From Phycisphaerales bacterium (GTDB lineage: Bacteria > Planctomycetota > Phycisphaerae > Phycisphaerales > UBA5793), in contig JADZAS010000005.1 of NCBI GenBank assembly GCA_020852515.1, forward strand, positions 1 through 64,000: DNA of 64,000 bases, given 5' to 3'. The notes under the pieces were generated by a model, which did no database searches, had not been told where the DNA came from, and was given only the letters and a program-made list of their open reading frames with translations. Below, piece after piece: positions 23,887 to 32,027 of the stretch. The position numbers and the translations under genes were made by a program. Position 1 is the first letter of the stretch. The number at the start of each line of letters is the position of its first letter.

Positions 23887-25005
23887 TCAGGCATTGCCGC
23901 GTGGGCCGCGCACCACTCTCGCTAGCGTGCCGATCAAGCCGCAGAAAGTCAGCGCCCACGCGGCGAGGGCGATGTAGATGAAAGCGCGCGGCAAGGGAGT
24001 GAGGAACTCGACGGGCAGCACCTGCGTGAGGCGGTAGGTGCAGACGGTGTACATTCCCAGGGGAAAGACGGCGCCCCAGTAGAGCGGGTCATAGCGCAGC
24101 GGGAAACGGCGGTAGCCGTGCCGCCACACGCCGAGGATGATGAGCATGGGAATCCACCACGTGGCCGTCGCCCAGAACAGCAGCGTGACGCCGCCGAGGA
24201 AAGGCGCGAGGCTTTCGAGCAGCGCCGAGGTGGAGGCGTTGTCGATGAGCACTGTGCCGGCGAGCGTGGAGATGGCCATCGCGCCCATGTTGATCCAATA
24301 CGGCGGAGCGAGGTCGGACGGCTCAAGTGCGAAGAAGGTGTAGCGGTAGAAGATGAGCGAAATGATCCAGACGTAGAGCATTCCGCCGCCGAGCCAGAAC
24401 ATGAGCGAAGCGAAGAGCACGGCTTGTCGCGACGGTTCGAGGTAGTGCGACACCTGGCCGCCGAGCAGCGAGACGGCCTGGGTGCCCACGACGGCGACGA
24501 GCCAGCCGCCATTGATGCCGCGCGCCAGTTCCGGCTTGGATTGCTTGACCGTGAGGCTGGCGAAAACGGTGTAGGTCAGAACGATCCAGAGCAGGAGCCC
24601 CAGAACCCACAAGCCCGTGGCGAGTTCGGGGAGCGCGAGGATGATCAGGCACTGGCTGCCGAGAACGCACGTGCCGGCGATCATGGTGAAGAAGCCCACG
24701 CCGCGGTTGTGGTCGCGCAGGTCGGCGACGAATCTCGATGGGAAGCGCCCGAGGCGGATAGCGGTCATGCTCCAGAGGCTGACGTAGAAGACGACGTTGA
24801 GCCACAGCAGCGCCAGGGCGATCAGGTGGAATCCCAGCAGGTGGCACGCATTGGAGATGATGCCGGTGGCCATCACCAGCGCGAAGTACGCGGGATGCAG
24901 ATCGCGCGCGCCGGCCAGCACTCGCCCGCTCAGGGTTGAGTGAGCCTCGGCCGCCCGCGCGGCTGAGACCGCGGCCGGCGGCGGGCTCGGCGATGGCGGG
25001 TTCAT
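23887..25005 (-). CDS. TehA/SLAC1 family anion channel or exporter
   Basis: 372 residues from the ATG at 25005, which overlaps the previous stop by 4 nt. Ten hydrophobic segments fill residues about 35-365, with 'HPAYFALVMATGIISNACHL' at the first helix, the standard TDT/TehA entry signature. An unusual 25-residue P/A-rich leader precedes it. The family conducts small anions (chloride, nitrate, malate, sulfite, tellurite by different members) through a central pore gated by a phenylalanine. Last gene of the six-gene redox operon, so it probably moves the oxyanion substrate or product of the Mo enzyme; which ion cannot be told. Confidence 0.85.
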   Translation of the reverse strand: MNPPSPSPPPAAVSAARAAEAHSTLSGRVLAGARDLHPAYFALVMATGIISNACHLLGFHLIALALLWLNVVFYVSLWSMTAIRLGRFPSRFVADLRDHNRGVGFFTMIAGTCVLGSQCLIILALPELATGLWVLGLLLWIVLTYTVFASLTVKQSKPELARGINGGWLVAVVGTQAVSLLGGQVSHYLEPSRQAVLFASLMFWLGGGMLYVWIISLIFYRYTFFALEPSDLAPPYWINMGAMAISTLAGTVLIDNASTSALLESLAPFLGGVTLLFWATATWWIPMLIILGVWRHGYRRFPLRYDPLYWGAVFPLGMYTVCTYRLTQVLPVEFLTPLPRAFIYIALAAWALTFCGLIGTLARVVRGPRGNA

Positions 25006-25244
25006 CGCTCCATCCTGTAGAGGTAGCGCAGCAGGCCGAGGTTGAGAGCGAAGCAGAGGATACTCACGATCGCCGCCGGCCAGATGACGGCGTAGTCTCC
25101 GCCGAGCCACGCATTCATCGTCGCCGTGAGCAGCCACAACTGGAGCACGGCGAGAATAAGGACAAAGCACAGGATGCCATGCACGACGGCGAGGCGCTGT
25201 TCACGGGAGAAGGGCGGACTCTTGCGGCCTCGAGGCTGATTCAT
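25002..25244 (-). CDS. Small two-span membrane protein of the redox operon
   Basis: 80 residues from the ATG at 25244, overlapping the Rieske stop and, at its other end, the TehA start. After a basic N-terminus (PRGRKSPPFSREQR) come two membrane helices, residues about 17-37 (LAVVHGILCFVLILAVLQLW) and about 48-70 (YAVIWPAAIVSILCFALNLG), with a short loop. Such small proteins often accompany transporters or cytochromes as assembly or anchor subunits. No family recognised. Translational coupling on both sides ties it to the complex. Confidence 0.65.
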   Translation of the reverse strand: MNQPRGRKSPPFSREQRLAVVHGILCFVLILAVLQLWLLTATMNAWLGGDYAVIWPAAIVSILCFALNLGLLRYLYRMER

Positions 25245-25789
25245 GTCGTGCGAACCTCCACGCCAGTTGCATAGACGCTGCCGTTGCGCACGTCGAGCAG
25301 AATCCTCGGCAGCGGGCGCCGCGGCGGGCCGGCGGTGGGCCGGCCCGTTGTGAGATCGAAGTAGCCGTGATGGCACGGGCAGCGCAGGCGGCTTTCACCC
25401 AGTTCCGGCACGACGGCGCACGCGAGGTGCGTGCACTCCTGGCCGTAAGCGAGCCACGTCCGCTCGCCGGTACGGGCGAGGAGGCACGAATCATGCGGGC
25501 CGGGGTAGGCGAAGGTGATGACGGCCCCGACGGGCACATCGACGACGCGCGCGATCTCGACGATGGCCGGCTCGCCGCGCCGACGGCGGCGCCAGTTCTC
25601 AAATCCGATCCACACCTGGCCGACGGCGAACGCGAGGCTGGTGAGCACCATGAACTTGGTGAAGTCGCGGCGCGCGACGTACTCATCCTGCGGCAGGTCG
25701 ATGGGAAAGTCGCGCCGCCACTTGGGCTGCTGGCTCTCCGGCCGGCCGTCGGGCGTTCTGGCGGCGCTGTCCACTTCGAGTCTGGCCAT
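25241..25789 (-). CDS. Rieske [2Fe-2S] protein with Tat-type membrane anchor
   Basis: 182 residues. Residues 40-46 read R-R-D-F-T-K-F, a twin-arginine motif, followed by one hydrophobic helix (MVLTSLAFAVGQVWIGF), so the folded protein is probably exported by Tat and stays anchored. The Rieske fold has 'CTHLACAV' (Cys119, His121) and 'CPCHHG' (Cys137, His140) as cluster ligands, and Cys124/Cys139 keep the stabilising disulfide of high-potential Rieske proteins. In the operon it sits between the ferredoxin and the small membrane protein; it likely passes electrons between the quinone side and a partner. Confidence 0.9.
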   Translation of the reverse strand: MARLEVDSAARTPDGRPESQQPKWRRDFPIDLPQDEYVARRDFTKFMVLTSLAFAVGQVWIGFENWRRRRRGEPAIVEIARVVDVPVGAVITFAYPGPHDSCLLARTGERTWLAYGQECTHLACAVVPELGESRLRCPCHHGYFDLTTGRPTAGPPRRPLPRILLDVRNGSVYATGVEVRTT

Positions 25790-25830
25790 CGTGCATACAC
25801 CTCCGCGCCGGCGCAGTCGCACCACCCGGC

Positions 25831-26454
<624 letters not shown>

Positions 26455-26493
26455 GCTCTCTCCACGATCTGCCTCGCGCGGATCGCGCTCGGG

Positions 26494-28740
26494 CTACTGC
26501 TGCGGCTCGAATCGCGCCTCCCACTCCGGCGGTCCATCAACCCTGTGGATGCGCACGGCGCAGGCCTTGTACTCGGGGATTTTCGAGATCGGATCCTGCG
26601 CGGAAATGGTGAGTTGGTTCGCGCTGCGCCGGCCGGCCCAGTGGTATGGGATGAAGACCGTATCCGGGCGGATGGTCGTGACGACCAGTGCGCGAAGCGT
26701 GGTGTCGCCGCGCCGGCTTTCGATCATCACCCAGTCGCCGGTGGCGATGCCATGCTGATCGGCGAGGCGAGGGTGCAGTTCGACGCGCGGCTCGGGGTAT
26801 TGCTCGACCAGCGGACCGATGCGACGCGTCTGCGTGCCCGACAAAAACTGACTCACCACTCGGCCGGTCGTCAACATCAGCGGAAAGTCCTCGTCCGTAT
26901 CCTCGACAGGCGGACGGTACTCGGCGACGTTGAATCGCGCCTTGCCATCGGGGAAGTAGAACGGACCCGCGCCCTTGGCCACGGGGTTCCACGAGCCGGA
27001 CTCGAACAGCCGCGGCGTGCCGGGGTGGTCCTCTGAAGGGCACGGCCAGAACACGCCGAACTGCTCCTCGATCTTCTCGTAGGTGATGCCCGAGTAATCG
27101 GCCACGCCGCCTTTGCTTGCTGCCCGGAGTTCGTCGAAGATCTCGCGCGGCGACGCGAAGGTGAAGCCGCGGTCGCGGCCGAGCGCCGCGGCGATGTCCT
27201 GGATGATCCGCCAGTCCTGCCGCGCCTCGCCGGGACACGGCACGGCCTTGTTGATCTTGATGACGCGGCCTTCGATCTGCGTGACCGTGCCTTCGTCCTC
27301 TTCGTGCAGCGAGCCGGGCAGCACGACGTCGGCATGCTGCGCCGTCTCATTGAGGAAGAAGTCGATCGCCACGTAAAAGTCGAGCTTTTCCAGCGCGCGC
27401 GTGACGAAGTTGTTGTCCGGCAGCGAGACTTTCGGGTTGAAGCAGATGCTCAGCAGCCCGCGGATCTCGCCGCGATCGATCTTGCGGATGATCTCGTAAG
27501 CATCCACGCCGGCCTGGGGGAGGTCGCGATCCTCAATGCCCCAGACTTTGCAGATGTGCGCGCGGTGCTCAGGATTGACGATGTCGCGCGCGCCGGGCAA
27601 CTGATCGCACTTCTGCCCGTGCTCGCGGCCGCCTTGGCCGTTGCCCTGGCCGGTGATCGTGGCGTAGCCGCAGCCGTCGCGCCCGATGCGGCCGGACGCG
27701 AGCACGATGTTGATCGCGCCGAGCACGTTCTGCACGCCGTGCGCGTGGTGCTCGATGCCTCGCGCGTGGAGGAGGAAACTGGTGGCGGCCGTCCCCCACC
27801 ACTCCGCGGCGCGCCGCAGCGAAGATTCGGTGATCCCCGTGACCTCGGCCGTCCGCGCCGGCGTCCACTCTTTGACACTCTGCGCCACGGCGTCGAAGCC
27901 CACGGTGTGCTTCTCGATGAAGTCGTGATCGAGCCAGTCGTGTTCGATCATGAGATGCGTGACGCCGGCAAACAAGGCCGCGTCACGGCCGGGCTTGACG
28001 GGCAGGAACAGGTCGCACGTGCGCGCGATCGGCGTGATGCGCGGATCGACCACGATGATCCGCGCGCCGTTCTCGCGCGCCTGCCAGACGTAATCGGTGG
28101 TGATCGGCGCGCATTCCGCGACGTTGGCGCCGCTGATCCAGACGAGTTCGGCTCTGGGAATGTCGCTCCACGGGTTGGCGGCGCGGTCGATGCCGAACGC
28201 CTTCTTGTTGCCGGCGGCGGCGCTGACCATGCACAGCCGGCCGTTGTAGTCGATGTTGGCCGTGCGCAGCGCCACGCGGGCGAACTTGCCCATGAGATAG
28301 GCCTTCTCGGTGGTGAGGCTCGCGCCGGTAAGCACGGCGAACGCATCCGCGCCGTGCTCGCTCTGGATGCGCCTGACGGCGTCCGCGACGCGCGCGATCG
28401 CGGCATCGTACTCCATGTTGCGAAAGCCGCCGGACGCAGATGGGTCGCGCTGCATGGCGTGGAGCAGGCGATCGGGATGCGACGCCTGGAGGTAGCGTTT
28501 CACGCCCTTCGGGCAGAGCATGCCGCGATTGAACGGGAACTCGAGCCACGGCTCAAAGCCGATGACCTGGTCGTCCTTCACCTTGAGTTGAATGCCGCAC
28601 TGCTGACCGCAGAAGCAGCAATGTGTTTTGACGAGGCGATCCGGCTCGACTCCCGGATCGAGGCGGATGCCCGACATCTCGGCGAGGTGCGGGCCGAACT
28701 GCTCGACGATGCTCCTCCTGTCAACGGGAAGTGTGGCCAT
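26494..28740 (-). CDS. NarB/NasC-like molybdopterin oxidoreductase, catalytic subunit
   Basis: 748 residues. The [4Fe-4S] site is Cys41-x2-Cys44-x3-Cys48-x27-Cys76 ([13 protein letters not shown] ... MLCPKG). The segment '[20 protein letters not shown]' places a cysteine (about 170) where assimilatory and periplasmic nitrate reductases have their Mo ligand, and '[11 protein letters not shown]' also matches that subfamily. The C-terminal molybdopterin dinucleotide-binding domain (about 620-735) is intact. No Tat signal, so cytoplasmic. Nitrate is the best guess for substrate, but the C-C-F-C-G-Q-Q-C variant and the operon partners differ from classical Nas. Confidence 0.85.
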
Positions 28741-28796
28741 GGCTCTCCAATCGAGTCGCCCGCCCGGGCAACTGCTTGTTCTTCAACCGGCAATCG

Positions 28797-29876
28797 TCAG
28801 TCGTCGGCTCCCTCGCCACTGGAAGCCCACAGCGAGCCTTGCGCCACCGCCAGCGCCGATCGGCGGCAGCGGGGGCAGATCCATTGATAGTGCTGCACCG
28901 GTGAATCGGGAAGTTCGTATCGATAGCCGAGTTGGCGCTCGACGACGATCAGGTCCTCCACGTGCATGCGCGAGGCGAACGCGTCGCCGCAGCGCCTGCA
29001 GAGAGCCTGATCGCCCGCAGCCCCGGCGTCTTGGTAGAACGCAACCCCCAGTTGCGCCGGCCGCTGGAAGATGTGAAAGAACTTGCCAAAGGGAAGGTAG
29101 AGCAGCGTGAAAATCACCGTGATCGCGTGCAGGATGGCGAGGAAGTCAAAGGCGTAACCCTTCATCCACGTGTAACTGGCCGTCAGCATCAGGCCCGTGA
29201 CGCTGATGGCAAAGAGCAGGATGAGCGGCAGGAAGTCTTCGCCGAATTCCTGCACGGCCGCGGCGCCGTGCTCGCGCATCCGTCGGCGCATCGCCAGCAT
29301 GACGCCGGCGATCACGAGAAACGCCGCCCACACCAGGCCATGGAAGATGAAAAACCCGACCGCCGAGTCGATCGGAAAAGCGAACGTGGGCCAGCCGAAG
29401 AGGAAGGCGCGATACCACTCGAAGTTGCCCGGCAGCGTCTCGAAGTGAATCCAGCCGAACACGAGCGGGAAGGTGATCGCCGCGGCGATGACGCAGCCCC
29501 ACATGATCAGCCAGTGGGCCGCCCATCTCGAGCGGCCGCGGCGCCAGATGAACAGGTTAAGGGCAAAGCCCTGCACGATGCGCCGCAGCCAGAGGGCGAG
29601 ATTGCGTCCCAGCGCGCCGCGCCGGAAGAACACACGCCAGCCGCGGCGCCAGTACATCGCCGTGGGCGGCCGCTGGAGCCACATCGAGTAGCGATAGGTC
29701 AGCCCGAAGACGGCAAAGAGGCTCGCAAACGTGTAGCCGATGAGAGCCGCGTCGAGGTGCTCGAGGTTTCTTGAGCCAAGGACGATGAGAATACCCAGCA
29801 GCGCCGTCGCGAGCACGGCCCATGTGAAGGCCTTGACTACCGCCGGCATCTGGTTTCTTGCCGCGTCCTGCGCCAT
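28797..29876 (-). CDS. Cytochrome-b-like membrane subunit with zinc-ribbon tail
   Basis: 359 residues from the ATG at 29876 (GTG at 29888 possible). Helices at about 12-32, 41-61, 120-147, 165-190, 212-235 and 245-270. Histidines occur inside or at the ends of the last four ([19 protein letters not shown], and '[13 protein letters not shown]'). This resembles NarI/DsrM-type quinol cytochromes, which bind two b hemes with His pairs. The tail (about 290-340) has C-R-R-C-G and W-I-C-P-R-C, a zinc ribbon not found in NarI. First gene of the operon, presumably the quinone-reacting anchor. Confidence 0.75.
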
Positions 29877-30447
29877 CACCCTGGGCACCTGTCAAGCAGT
29901 CGAGCGGATCGACGCCCGCCGGCCGATTCAATGAGCGCCGCCGCTCACCGAAGGCATCGATTCACGAATTGGTCGATTCTACACCGTCGAGGTTTCGCGT
30001 GACCGTGGCGGGATCCTCTGTTGCTCAAGCCACCTGCGAGCGAGCCGGCGGCTCGCTTCACATCGAATCCCAGCCCGGCGAAGGAACGATCGTCACGATC
30101 ACCCTGCCGGCCAGCAACGCGCAGACGCTGGTCCGGACGAACAACCGGGAATCTTGCGATCCGGTGAAGTCCCGCCTCGCACGTGCGGGGACGGGACCAG
30201 CCGCGGCACCCGGATCAGCGGGCGGGAGACGGCTCGGGCCGCTTCTCCACGCCGCCCGCAGCAGGTCGGGCCGGGGGGCAAAGTCGGCGCCCGCATCGAC
30301 TCCTGACGTTGTTTGACGCCGCGCAAAGCGCTATCATACGGGCTTCCCGACCACCCGATTGACGTCGCTGGGCTCGGGAGTTTACCAACGGCACAACCGG
30401 CCGCAGATTGCGGCCCGATGAGACCAGCAGGCGAAAGCAGACCGGCC
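29877..30447. other. 571-nt gap with only a kinase relic
   Basis: This divergent region separates the redox operon from the ribosomal protein gene, so both promoters should be here. Apart from the histidine-kinase fragment near 30002-30125 no coding signal is seen. The stretch 30130-30440 shows no repeat, hairpin with T-run or RNA gene that I can recognise. Confidence 0.4.
30002..30125 (+). pseudogene. C-terminal fragment of a histidine kinase ATPase domain
   Basis: In one frame the DNA reads 'ERAGGSLHIESQPGEGTIVT' followed by I-T-L-P, which is the last strand pair of a histidine-kinase HATPase domain (G-G-x-I-x-I-x-S-x-P-G-x-G-T-x-x-x-x-x-L-P). Nothing upstream in any frame continues the domain toward the G-x-G-L-G-L box, and the sequence after the fragment is low-complexity. 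A remnant about 40 codons long left by deletion or recombination. Confidence 0.6.
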
Positions 30448-30754: not shown

Positions 30755-30941
30755 ATTGCGCCCCGGGCGCTGACGGCCGGCCGCACCGGGTTTGACGCAA
30801 GGTGCGCGACCAGTCCGCACATCCGCCTGGAGCGAATCACCAGGCGACCGGCCCGTGACGCGGGACCGGCCGCTGCCCGGGCGCGGGGCATGGCTCCGGC
30901 CGATACGGGCACTTCCGGATTCTGGCAGAAAGGAGCATGAG

Positions 30942-32027
30942 ATGGCGCGGAATCTCCACAGTGTGGGCGCGGGTGTCCTCTGTACGGCCGCCCTGTTGAT
31001 CGGCACAATGGCGGCAAACGCCGGCCCGCCGCCGGTGCGCCACGCCGTGACGGATCTCGGCGTGGCGGTCGGTGCGTTCGGCATCACTTCGCGCGGCGAG
31101 GTCGTGGGCATCTTCCACGGCGCCCAGGGACAGTACCATGGCTTTCTCTCGTCGCGGGGCGCCTTCACAGATATCGGCTCGCTTGGCGCGCACCCCACCT
31201 TTGCACGGGCCATCAACGATGCCGGCGAGATCGTCGGCAGTTCCATCACGACGCGAGGTGAAGAGCACGCGTTTGTCAAGCGGGGCGAGATCATGATCGA
31301 CTTGGGTACATTGGGCGGCACGTACAGCCACGCCAATGACATCAACAGTGCGGGAGTGATCGTCGGCGACGCGCAAACCCGCGGCCACGGCGGTCGTCAC
31401 GGCGAGCAGCATGCCTGCGCCTGGCTGGATGGCCGCATGATCGACCTTGGCACACTCGGCGGCGCGTACAGCGAAGCGCACGGCGTGAACGACCTCGGCC
31501 ACGTCGTCGGCTGGGCGTGGAATGCCCACTGGCGGCGGCGACCGTTCATCTGGTCGCAGTCCACTGGCATGACTGATCTGGGCACGCTCGGCGGCGTGGA
31601 GGGAAGCGCGCGAGATGTCAATTCGTTGGGCGAGGTGGCCGGTTCGTCGAGTCTGCCCGACGGTCTGCTTCATGCAACCCTTTGGCGCGACGGACAGATC
31701 ATCGACCTCGGCGTGCTGCCCGATGCCGGCAAGCAGGGGCCGTACGGTCCGGAATTGATCGAGACCTACGCCACCGCGATCAACGACGCCGGCGAGATCG
31801 TCGGCAATTCGAGTCCTGCGTTCATTCACAGTGGCGCCTTCCTGTGGCGAGATGGCGAAATGGTGAGCGTGAGCAGTCTGATTGATCCCGATTCGGGATG
31901 GCAGATTTCCACCGTGAGCAATATCAACAATCACGGCCAGATCACCGGTATCGCCCGCGGCGCCGACGGCTTCTATCACGCCGTGCGCCTCACGCCGGTG
32001 CGAGCCGCCGACGTGGCGGGCAGATAA
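30942..32027 (+). CDS. Exported HAF-repeat protein
   Basis: 361 residues, AAAGGAG before the ATG. Signal peptide at residues 1-27 (VLCTAALLIGTMAANA cleavage region). The mature part is six or seven repeats of about 40 residues built on 'D-L-G-T-L-G-G-x-x-S-x-A-x-x-I-N-x-x-G-x-I-V-G', for example 'MIDLGTLGGTYSHANDINSA'. This is the HAF repeat family of extracellular proteins, thought to form a beta-propeller-like ring. No enzyme motif. Single gene between two terminators, so independently transcribed. Role unknown, probably cell surface or secreted. Confidence 0.85.
   Translation: MARNLHSVGAGVLCTAALLIGTMAANAGPPPVRHAVTDLGVAVGAFGITSRGEVVGIFHGAQGQYHGFLSSRGAFTDIGSLGAHPTFARAINDAGEIVGSSITTRGEEHAFVKRGEIMIDLGTLGGTYSHANDINSAGVIVGDAQTRGHGGRHGEQHACAWLDGRMIDLGTLGGAYSEAHGVNDLGHVVGWAWNAHWRRRPFIWSQSTGMTDLGTLGGVEGSARDVNSLGEVAGSSSLPDGLLHATLWRDGQIIDLGVLPDAGKQGPYGPELIETYATAINDAGEIVGNSSPAFIHSGAFLWRDGEMVSVSSLIDPDSGWQISTVSNINNHGQITGIARGADGFYHAVRLTPVRAADVAGR

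Follow-up and report, generated by a model that had tools for sequence, protein, structure and literature searches.

A 2020 survey states that no member of the clade formed by formate dehydrogenase (FDH), NasA, NasC, AioA and NapA is associated with canonical four-cluster or membrane-anchor subunits (PMC7331816), and a 2023 survey describes NasC and NasA as exclusively assimilatory (PMC10100899). Here we report six adjacent genes that bring a molybdenum (Mo) enzyme of this clade together with such subunits. They lie in a 64,000-nucleotide stretch of the genome of a Phycisphaerales bacterium (contig JADZAS010000005.1, positions 1 to 64,000; hereafter the window), and encode a membrane cytochrome b (CytB), a molybdopterin oxidoreductase (Mo subunit), a four-cluster ferredoxin (Fer), a Rieske protein, a DUF6755 protein and a TehA/SLAC1 anion channel. 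We consider it probable that they specify a membrane-bound, quinol-dependent nitrate reductase that faces the cytoplasm and is composed of NasC, HycB/HycF-like, NarI-like and Rieske modules. Each part by itself is of a known kind, and the novelty lies in how they are combined.

Each of the closest described systems resembles this set in some respects. NasC of the Bacillus/Deinococcus/Paenibacillus type shares the clade and the active-site signature of the Mo subunit, and in some cases a NarK-type transporter is encoded nearby; in contrast, the four NasC clusters that were read carry NirB (two of them also NirD) and no gene for a cytochrome b, a four-cluster ferredoxin or DUF6755, and the window Mo subunit is 39% identical to a Deinococcus NasC. 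The plan of NarGHI is similar, with the Mo subunit in the cytoplasm, a subunit of four clusters, what may be a NarI-like diheme anchor, and a transporter for nitrate/nitrite, but the window Mo subunit reaches just 59.7 bits on the NarG model (TIGR01580, cut-off 1084). NarG belongs to a different branch and has an Asp ligand, and we know of no NarGHI with a Rieske protein or a HycF-type tail. The E. coli formate hydrogenlyase (FdhF-HycB-HycF) has a Mo subunit of the wider FdhF/NasC group, a HycB-like ferredoxin and a four-cysteine metal tail at the dock; its tail, however, is carried by a complex I-like ferredoxin in a chain that leads to a hydrogenase, whereas here it is fused to the cytochrome b. 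Arsenite oxidase (AioBA) also pairs a Mo subunit with a Rieske protein of the twin-arginine translocation (Tat) type, but AioA lacks the Cys ligand and branches elsewhere, and to our knowledge AioBA has neither a four-cluster ferredoxin nor a membrane cytochrome. NapA of the periplasmic Nap system is Tat-exported, whereas no twin-arginine motif or hydrophobic stretch was detected near the N terminus in any of the 72 Mo sequences aligned here (including L088 and L089, two plasmid proteins outside the operon). The haloarchaeal nitrate reductase that works with a Rieske/cytochrome b pair is a NarG-type enzyme. Haloarchaeal and Methanoperedens nitrate reductases have a Rieske/cytochrome b complex encoded alongside them or working for them, but this cytochrome b is of the bc1 type and the nitrate reductase is located outside the membrane (PMC4683180). 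The original prediction, made from the letters of the window, had stated that the combination matched no Nar, Nap, Nas or formate dehydrogenase operon that could be named; this stands for the NasC clusters, but the pairing of a nitrate reductase with Rieske and cytochrome b proteins has a precedent in these haloarchaeal clusters.

Organization and distribution of the gene set

Open reading frame (ORF) and Pfam annotation placed the six genes on the minus strand, between positions 23887 and 29888, in the order CytB-Mo-Fer-Rieske-DUF6755-TehA/SLAC1 (Table 1). Six leftward genes, three of them overlapping, had been predicted, and this arrangement was recovered, with 4-base overlaps at the Rieske/DUF6755 and DUF6755/TehA junctions. 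The common strand, the tight spacing and these overlaps suggest that the six genes are expressed as one transcript. The Pfam matches were Molybdopterin (2e-56), Fer4_11 (5e-21), Rieske (2e-8), DUF6755 (1e-34) and SLAC1 (7e-53), which identify the anticipated two-span protein as DUF6755 and agree with the anticipated TehA/SLAC1 channel; CytB matched no Pfam family in this annotation. As also predicted, no nitrite reductase was present among the nine annotated ORFs in and around the operon. In the open-access full text searched, a coverage to which subscription journals and preprints do not belong, the gene set was not described and no mention of DUF6755 or PF20540 was found.

Table 1. Location of the six genes and of selected sites within the window; CytB residues are numbered from GTG 29888 (the original prediction used ATG 29876).
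Feature	Position	Strand	Remarks
CytB, NarI/EtfD-like membrane cytochrome b with C-terminal metal-binding tail (predicted)	28797..29888	minus	start GTG 29888 or ATG 29876
CytB tail, residues 292-348, CxxC-x35..40-CPxC, HycF-like metal site (predicted)	28845..29015	minus	structure and profile match
Mo, NasC-clade molybdopterin oxidoreductase, catalytic subunit, 748 aa, no signal peptide seen	26494..28740	minus	models, trees
Mo Cys170-Met171, predicted Mo ligand and next Met; C-M as in NasC/NapA, unlike C-H of formate dehydrogenase	28228..28233	minus	
Fer, ferredoxin subunit with four [4Fe-4S] sites, FdnH/HycB/DmsB kind, 207 aa	25831..26454	minus	
Rieske [2Fe-2S] protein with N-terminal Tat-type anchor, 182 aa	25241..25789	minus	
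Rieske twin arginine Arg40-Arg41 (RRDFTK), invariant	25667..25672	minus	66/66 sequences
DUF6755 (PF20540), 80 aa, two predicted spans, both ends inside	25002..25244	minus	
SLAC1/TehA-family anion channel, 372 aa; replaced by NarK in many relatives	23887..25005	minus	

A scan of a genome collection with CytB yielded 77 loci (53-94% identity); together with four Deinococcus plasmids and a second copy from the window genome, 82 loci were compared. The five core genes (CytB, Mo, Fer, Rieske and DUF6755) were found together in 64 of them, which excludes chance as the source of the gene set and extends the synteny, as the original prediction required, well beyond one genome. Core genes were counted from stop-to-stop ORFs; the codon-scored gene set used for clustering misses some short core genes, and the recurring flank clusters were annotated with Pfam through ten representatives. 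Among the 18 loci without the full core, 15 have less than 1.3 kb of sequence beyond the last core gene, and in L013, L080 and L086 the remaining core genes are absent even though more than 5 kb is left.

The 64 five-gene loci span 12 phyla, 11 named by the tool plus Deinococcota: Planctomycetota (25 loci), Acidobacteriota (11), Myxococcota (6), Bdellovibrionota (4), Armatimonadota (3), Chloroflexota (3), and one each in Cyanobacteriota, Verrucomicrobiota, Gemmatimonadota, Pseudomonadota and Vulcanimicrobiota; to the other seven, which include the four Deinococcus plasmids (D. wulumuqiensis is among the carriers), the tool assigned no phylum. Most of the loci come from metagenome bins, and single odd placements, such as the Cyanobacteria and Hyphomicrobiaceae bins nested among planctomycetes in the tree, may be binning errors. 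Cultured and sequenced carriers belong to Deinococcus and Roseimaritima. The operon is patchily distributed, with Mo subunits of its score class in 3 of 41 near relatives when the window genome is counted. This genome is 96.7% complete and has two copies, on contigs C5 and C9. The second one (L006, 4838-11090 of contig C9) is complete, with a CytB that is 83% identical and a TehA of its own. Some Phycisphaerales loci contain a small gene between CytB and Mo (L039, and L042 4241-4627 with a cupin domain).

The Mo subunit and its putative electron-transfer partners

The Mo subunit of the window scored highest against the NasC model (NF047855, 805.4 bits, cut-off 1100), followed by those of formate dehydrogenase (TIGR01591, 577.8 bits, cut-off 666.25), haloarchaeal NasA (380 bits, also under its cut-off) and NapA (TIGR01706, 260.8 bits, cut-off 930.55). 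The NasC cut-off was reached in none of the 199 genomes of the phylum; Mo subunits of the operon score class (780-834 bits) were found in six of them, and all other matches were at or below 580. The Mo proteins of the operon are 56-95% identical to that of the window, and beyond the Deinococcus NasC no other outside sequence exceeds 36%. In maximum-likelihood trees of 53, 51 and 44 sequences (quick searches with some long branches, B. subtilis NasC left out, and support only from the Shimodaira-Hasegawa-like approximate likelihood ratio test), they formed one group with support 100, which joined NasC with support 99 to 100 and stood apart from FdhF, NarB/NasA, NapA and AioA (the latter in the 44-sequence tree). 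The sequences dropped were L105 and L106 (wrong ORF), L102 (the window copy), Tsukamurella from the second tree and nine more from the third. The Mo subunit does not fall, then, inside a characterized clade with the same operon, in line with the original prediction; its nearest relative is NasC, whose clusters differ. In one of these (L145), a Rieske-domain gene directly follows NirB and is probably NirD.

The active site leads to the same assignment. Around the Mo ligand, the operon sequences read DYNGRLCM, and their second motif is [14 protein letters not shown]; both are near-identical to those of the four NasC sequences, whose signature is DYNGR-x-CM plus [13 protein letters not shown]. 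The operon Mo subunit thus shares with NasC both the clade and the signature, including the Cys ligand. This cysteine, whose presence had been predicted, is Cys170 and is invariant in the 72 sequences; Met follows it in 71, and the remaining one is consistent with the Streptomyces protein L089, which lies outside the operon and reads RLCT. Formate dehydrogenases have Cys or Sec followed by His and the motif RGQNNVQG, whereas the window Mo subunit has Cys-Met and a Thr that replaces that Arg; identity with these enzymes was rejected on such residues. Arsenite oxidase was rejected on the Mo ligand and the tree branch, and Nap and NarG on the model scores. Public records name the operon Mo subunit molybdopterin oxidoreductase. 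A separate plasmid clade, mostly named nitrate reductase and found in Gloeothece, Deinococcus, Streptomyces and Halomonas, has RLCT and MNGQ versus the RLCM and TGQ of the operon (L131 5001-7049, L132 4983-7442, L089 3908-6397, L140 3989-6817); in L131 and L140 a gene for an HPP-family protein adjoins it or lies near it.

In CytB, His125, His254 and His272 are invariant in 79 sequences, and His183 is present in 78. The AlphaFold model of this protein (66 sequences, mean predicted local distance difference test score, pLDDT, of 89) was compared with solved structures using VIA-align, which placed EtfD first (Z 11.6, 3.8 A, 220 residues), followed by eight NarI chains (Z 10.3-10.7); the next, unrelated entries had Z 7.5. 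QmoC, DsrM and bc1 cytochrome b were not among the entries listed in this comparison and are not thereby excluded. The mean number of positive charges (10.6 in loop 70-120, 1.8 in loop 146-178, 4.1 in loop 200-218 and 12.1 in the tail) predicts six spans, with both ends and the tail inside. Such a topology would place His125 and His272 near the inner side and His183 and His254 near the outer side, so that two transmembrane b hemes, with His183/His254 and His125/His272 as the presumed pairs, are likely. The Deinococcus homologs of CytB (L087 8774-9886, L090 8914-10026, L091 8992-10104, L092 8884-9996) are annotated as major facilitator superfamily (MFS) transporters, which looks like a misannotation.

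The tail of CytB carries four conserved cysteines (Cys297, Cys300 and Cys338 in 79 of 79 sequences, Cys341 in 78), and in 76 of the 79 they follow the HycF-type metal-site pattern, two CxxC pairs separated by 35-40 residues. Residues 292-348 of the model superimposed on residues 112-165 of E. coli HycF (7z0t_F) with Z 5.9, a root-mean-square deviation of 1.7 A over 52 residues and 23% identity. HycF was also recovered with a profile of the tails, scoring 11.3 bits (1.4e-5 for one sequence; hhalign 4.9e-5), which no non-CytB ORF attained among the 13,797 ORFs of the loci (best 8.6). The structural report on formate hydrogenlyase describes the HycF quartet (Cys117, 120, 155 and 158; CxxC-x34-CPxC) as binding one metal ion, assigned tentatively to iron, close to FdhF (PMC9474812); this metal is considered to lie off the electron path. 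By analogy, any metal bound by the CytB tail may likewise be off the path, and the Mo-enzyme docking module of formate hydrogenlyase seems to have been reused on a cytochrome b here. Of the NarI/DsrM-like protein with a zinc-ribbon tail that had been proposed, the fold is probably NarI/EtfD-like, and the tail is better regarded as a putative metal-binding one of the HycF type.

The prediction of a four-cluster ferredoxin was borne out: Fer is a subunit of the FdnH/HycB kind whose 16 cluster cysteines, together with Cys29, are present in all 68 aligned sequences, none of which has a Tat motif or a hydrophobic stretch near the N terminus. In the Rieske protein, the cluster ligands, Arg40-Arg41 and two further cysteines (124 and 139), at positions that form a disulphide in bc1 proteins, are invariant in 66 of 66 sequences. 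The twin arginine and the extra cysteines argue for Tat export and an oxidizing compartment, and the Tat-type Rieske protein with a complete cluster site that had been anticipated is upheld. Gly142 and Phe144 are also invariant; the corresponding residues of bc1 proteins are Ser and Tyr, and this difference makes a lower Rieske potential likely. The model (pLDDT 90) shows one long N-terminal helix, and its best Foldseek match is AioB of arsenite oxidase (1g8j_B, E 5.6e-8), closely followed by dioxygenase ferredoxins and further Rieske proteins; against the AioB sequence model (TIGR02694) the protein scored 37.6 bits (cut-off 95.65). It could act as a partner in quinol oxidation, as an electron input or as an outlet.

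Transporters, genomic context and the probable reaction

Within 1500 nt of the core, 38 of the 64 five-gene loci have TehA, 18 have an MFS transporter of the NarK cluster, one has both and seven have neither; over the whole locus the numbers are 39 for TehA and 22 for NarK, one of these loci having both, and four with neither. By parsimony, these states require at least nine changes on the Mo tree. All 24 members of the MFS cluster matched the NarK model (TIGR00886), and among the Deinococcus copies one is annotated as a nitrate/nitrite transporter and another as belonging to the NarK/NasA family. That two unrelated transporters replace each other at one position points to a substrate common to both, nitrate and/or nitrite. 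On three Deinococcus plasmids (L087 17503-18102, L090 17818-18435, L092 6586-7176), the neighborhood of the operon includes an FmdE-family gene and another gene for an MFS transporter, which in L087 matches the NarK model.

The gene set, its conservation, the predicted folds and the clade were computed, and from these we infer the substrate, the direction, the use of quinol, the heme pairing and the subunit contacts. In the proposed mechanism, CytB would oxidize (mena)quinol in the membrane and the electrons would cross it on the two b hemes; the cytoplasmic metal tail would help to dock the HycB-like ferredoxin and the NasC-type Mo subunit, where nitrate would be converted to nitrite in the cytoplasm. 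TehA here, or NarK elsewhere, would carry nitrate in and/or nitrite out, and the Tat-exported Rieske protein, outside and with DUF6755, would be an accessory electron-transfer part. The original prediction of a cytoplasmic, quinone-linked reductase of an oxyanion with its own anion route is supported as the best reading by the active site, the clade, the transporter exchange, the sidedness and fold predicted for the subunits and the HycF-like dock, and we have fair confidence that the oxyanion is nitrate. ScdA/RIC-type genes for nitric oxide (NO) repair, present in 18 of the 82 loci (in seven within 1 kb of CytB), and Crp/Fnr-type regulators, in eight loci, fit a nitrogen-oxide metabolism. A RIC-type gene is located about 5.5 kb from CytB of the second copy in the window genome.

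Several observations weigh against this reading. The Z values of CytB, 10-12, are below the level of about 13 under which the tool advises caution for helical bundles; Foldseek alone gave no match for its model at E 0.001, listing mostly unrelated receptors, and its profile matched no PDB chain by sequence. The NarK-model scores listed for members of the MFS cluster (208.8 to 277.3) are under the cut-off of 311.7. It is hard to see what a Rieske protein would do in a NarI-type chain, and the strict Tat pattern was matched by just 5 of its 66 sequences; it fails in the other 61 because the residue after Phe (+5) is mostly Thr and not hydrophobic. In the open-access full text searched, we found no report of activity, expression or a phenotype for any carrier. 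Finally, at one locus (L057) the operon is accompanied by NarK and by genes from the NirB and uroporphyrinogen-synthase clusters, an arrangement that assimilation or ammonification would fit equally well.

This locus, together with the assimilatory nature of the nearest known enzymes, the NasC proteins, favors an assimilatory nitrate reductase whose electrons would arrive by an unusual route, with quinol and the Rieske protein replacing the flavoprotein and the product feeding nitrogen metabolism. We regard this as unlikely, since the siroheme nitrite/sulfite reductase family (NIR_SIR, PF01077) has no match in the window genome, compared with 11 of 14 control genomes that do, and no NirK, NrfA or NirS was over cut-off there; nitrite would then be exported or handled by an unrecognized enzyme. 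Moreover, one plasmid of D. wulumuqiensis carries the operon and, apart from it, a full NasC-NirBD-transporter-CobA cluster, so that the operon is not needed for assimilation, at least in this species. In some carriers, as L057 illustrates, the product of the operon may nevertheless feed ammonium formation.

The structural match to AioB, the Rieske subunit of arsenite oxidase, and transporters (NarK/TehA) compatible with both directions would also suit a nitrite oxidoreductase, or a reversible nitrate/nitrite enzyme, in which the electrons of nitrite would leave through the Rieske protein towards a periplasmic cytochrome c. This is improbable, given that the set includes a NarI-like, quinone-type cytochrome, that the active site is of the NasC reductase type and that no conserved cytochrome c gene lies nearby (CxxCH in 6 of 331 gene calls within 3 kb). 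Reduction or oxidation of another oxyanion (chlorate, selenate, arsenite or tellurite), with TehA as an exporter, would agree with the name of the TehA family, and SLAC1 channels transport several anions; however, NarK repeatedly takes the place of TehA, the Mo subunit has the NasC signature and AioA lacks its invariant Cys, so that we hardly expect this outcome. In AioBA, the Mo subunit is co-exported with the Tat Rieske protein; the same route was considered here and is less likely, being at odds with the cytoplasmic CytB tail and the nitrate transporters. The solved chains closest in sequence to the Mo subunit are formate dehydrogenases, and the HycB- and HycF-like parts likewise suggest a membrane-bound enzyme of that type, within the FdhF clade; this is scarcely credible with a Cys-Met pair, without the Arg of the RGQNNVQG motif, with a TIGR01591 score below cut-off and beside an anion channel or NarK.

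Within the preferred reading of a quinol-dependent nitrate reductase, CytB, the exported Rieske protein and DUF6755 could conceivably form a new quinol-oxidizing module on a NarI-like, not bc1-type, cytochrome b, which would split the electrons of quinol, one passing via the b hemes to cytoplasmic nitrate and the other via the Rieske protein to a periplasmic acceptor. We consider this doubtful; if true, the system would be a nitrate reductase that bifurcates quinol, and we know of no nitrate reductase for which such an energetic plan has been described.

Two other genes deserve mention. About 48 kb from the second operon copy, contig C9 encodes a 1199-aa enzyme of the dimethyl sulfoxide (DMSO)-reductase type II with a beta-subunit-like ferredoxin (L007 6668-11929), which is possibly nitrite oxidoreductase-like; enzymes of this kind are reported for other Planctomycetota (PMC10732223). 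In the window, the gene for ribosomal protein L31 (30313-30684) adjoins an ORF (30792-32027) that contains many DLGTLGG-like repeats and whose start, judged by eye, resembles a signal sequence.

Implications for nitrate metabolism

The gene set is directly a widespread counter-example to the statement on subunit association in PMC7331816, and probably also to the exclusively assimilatory role given in PMC10100899. The shared tail suggests that one docking module has been reused between hydrogen and nitrate metabolism. Since carriers in Deinococcus and Roseimaritima are cultured and sequenced, the idea is directly testable. If nitrate is respired through this system, then in Planctomycetota, Acidobacteriota, Myxococcota, Deinococcus and others this trait is being overlooked or taken for assimilation.

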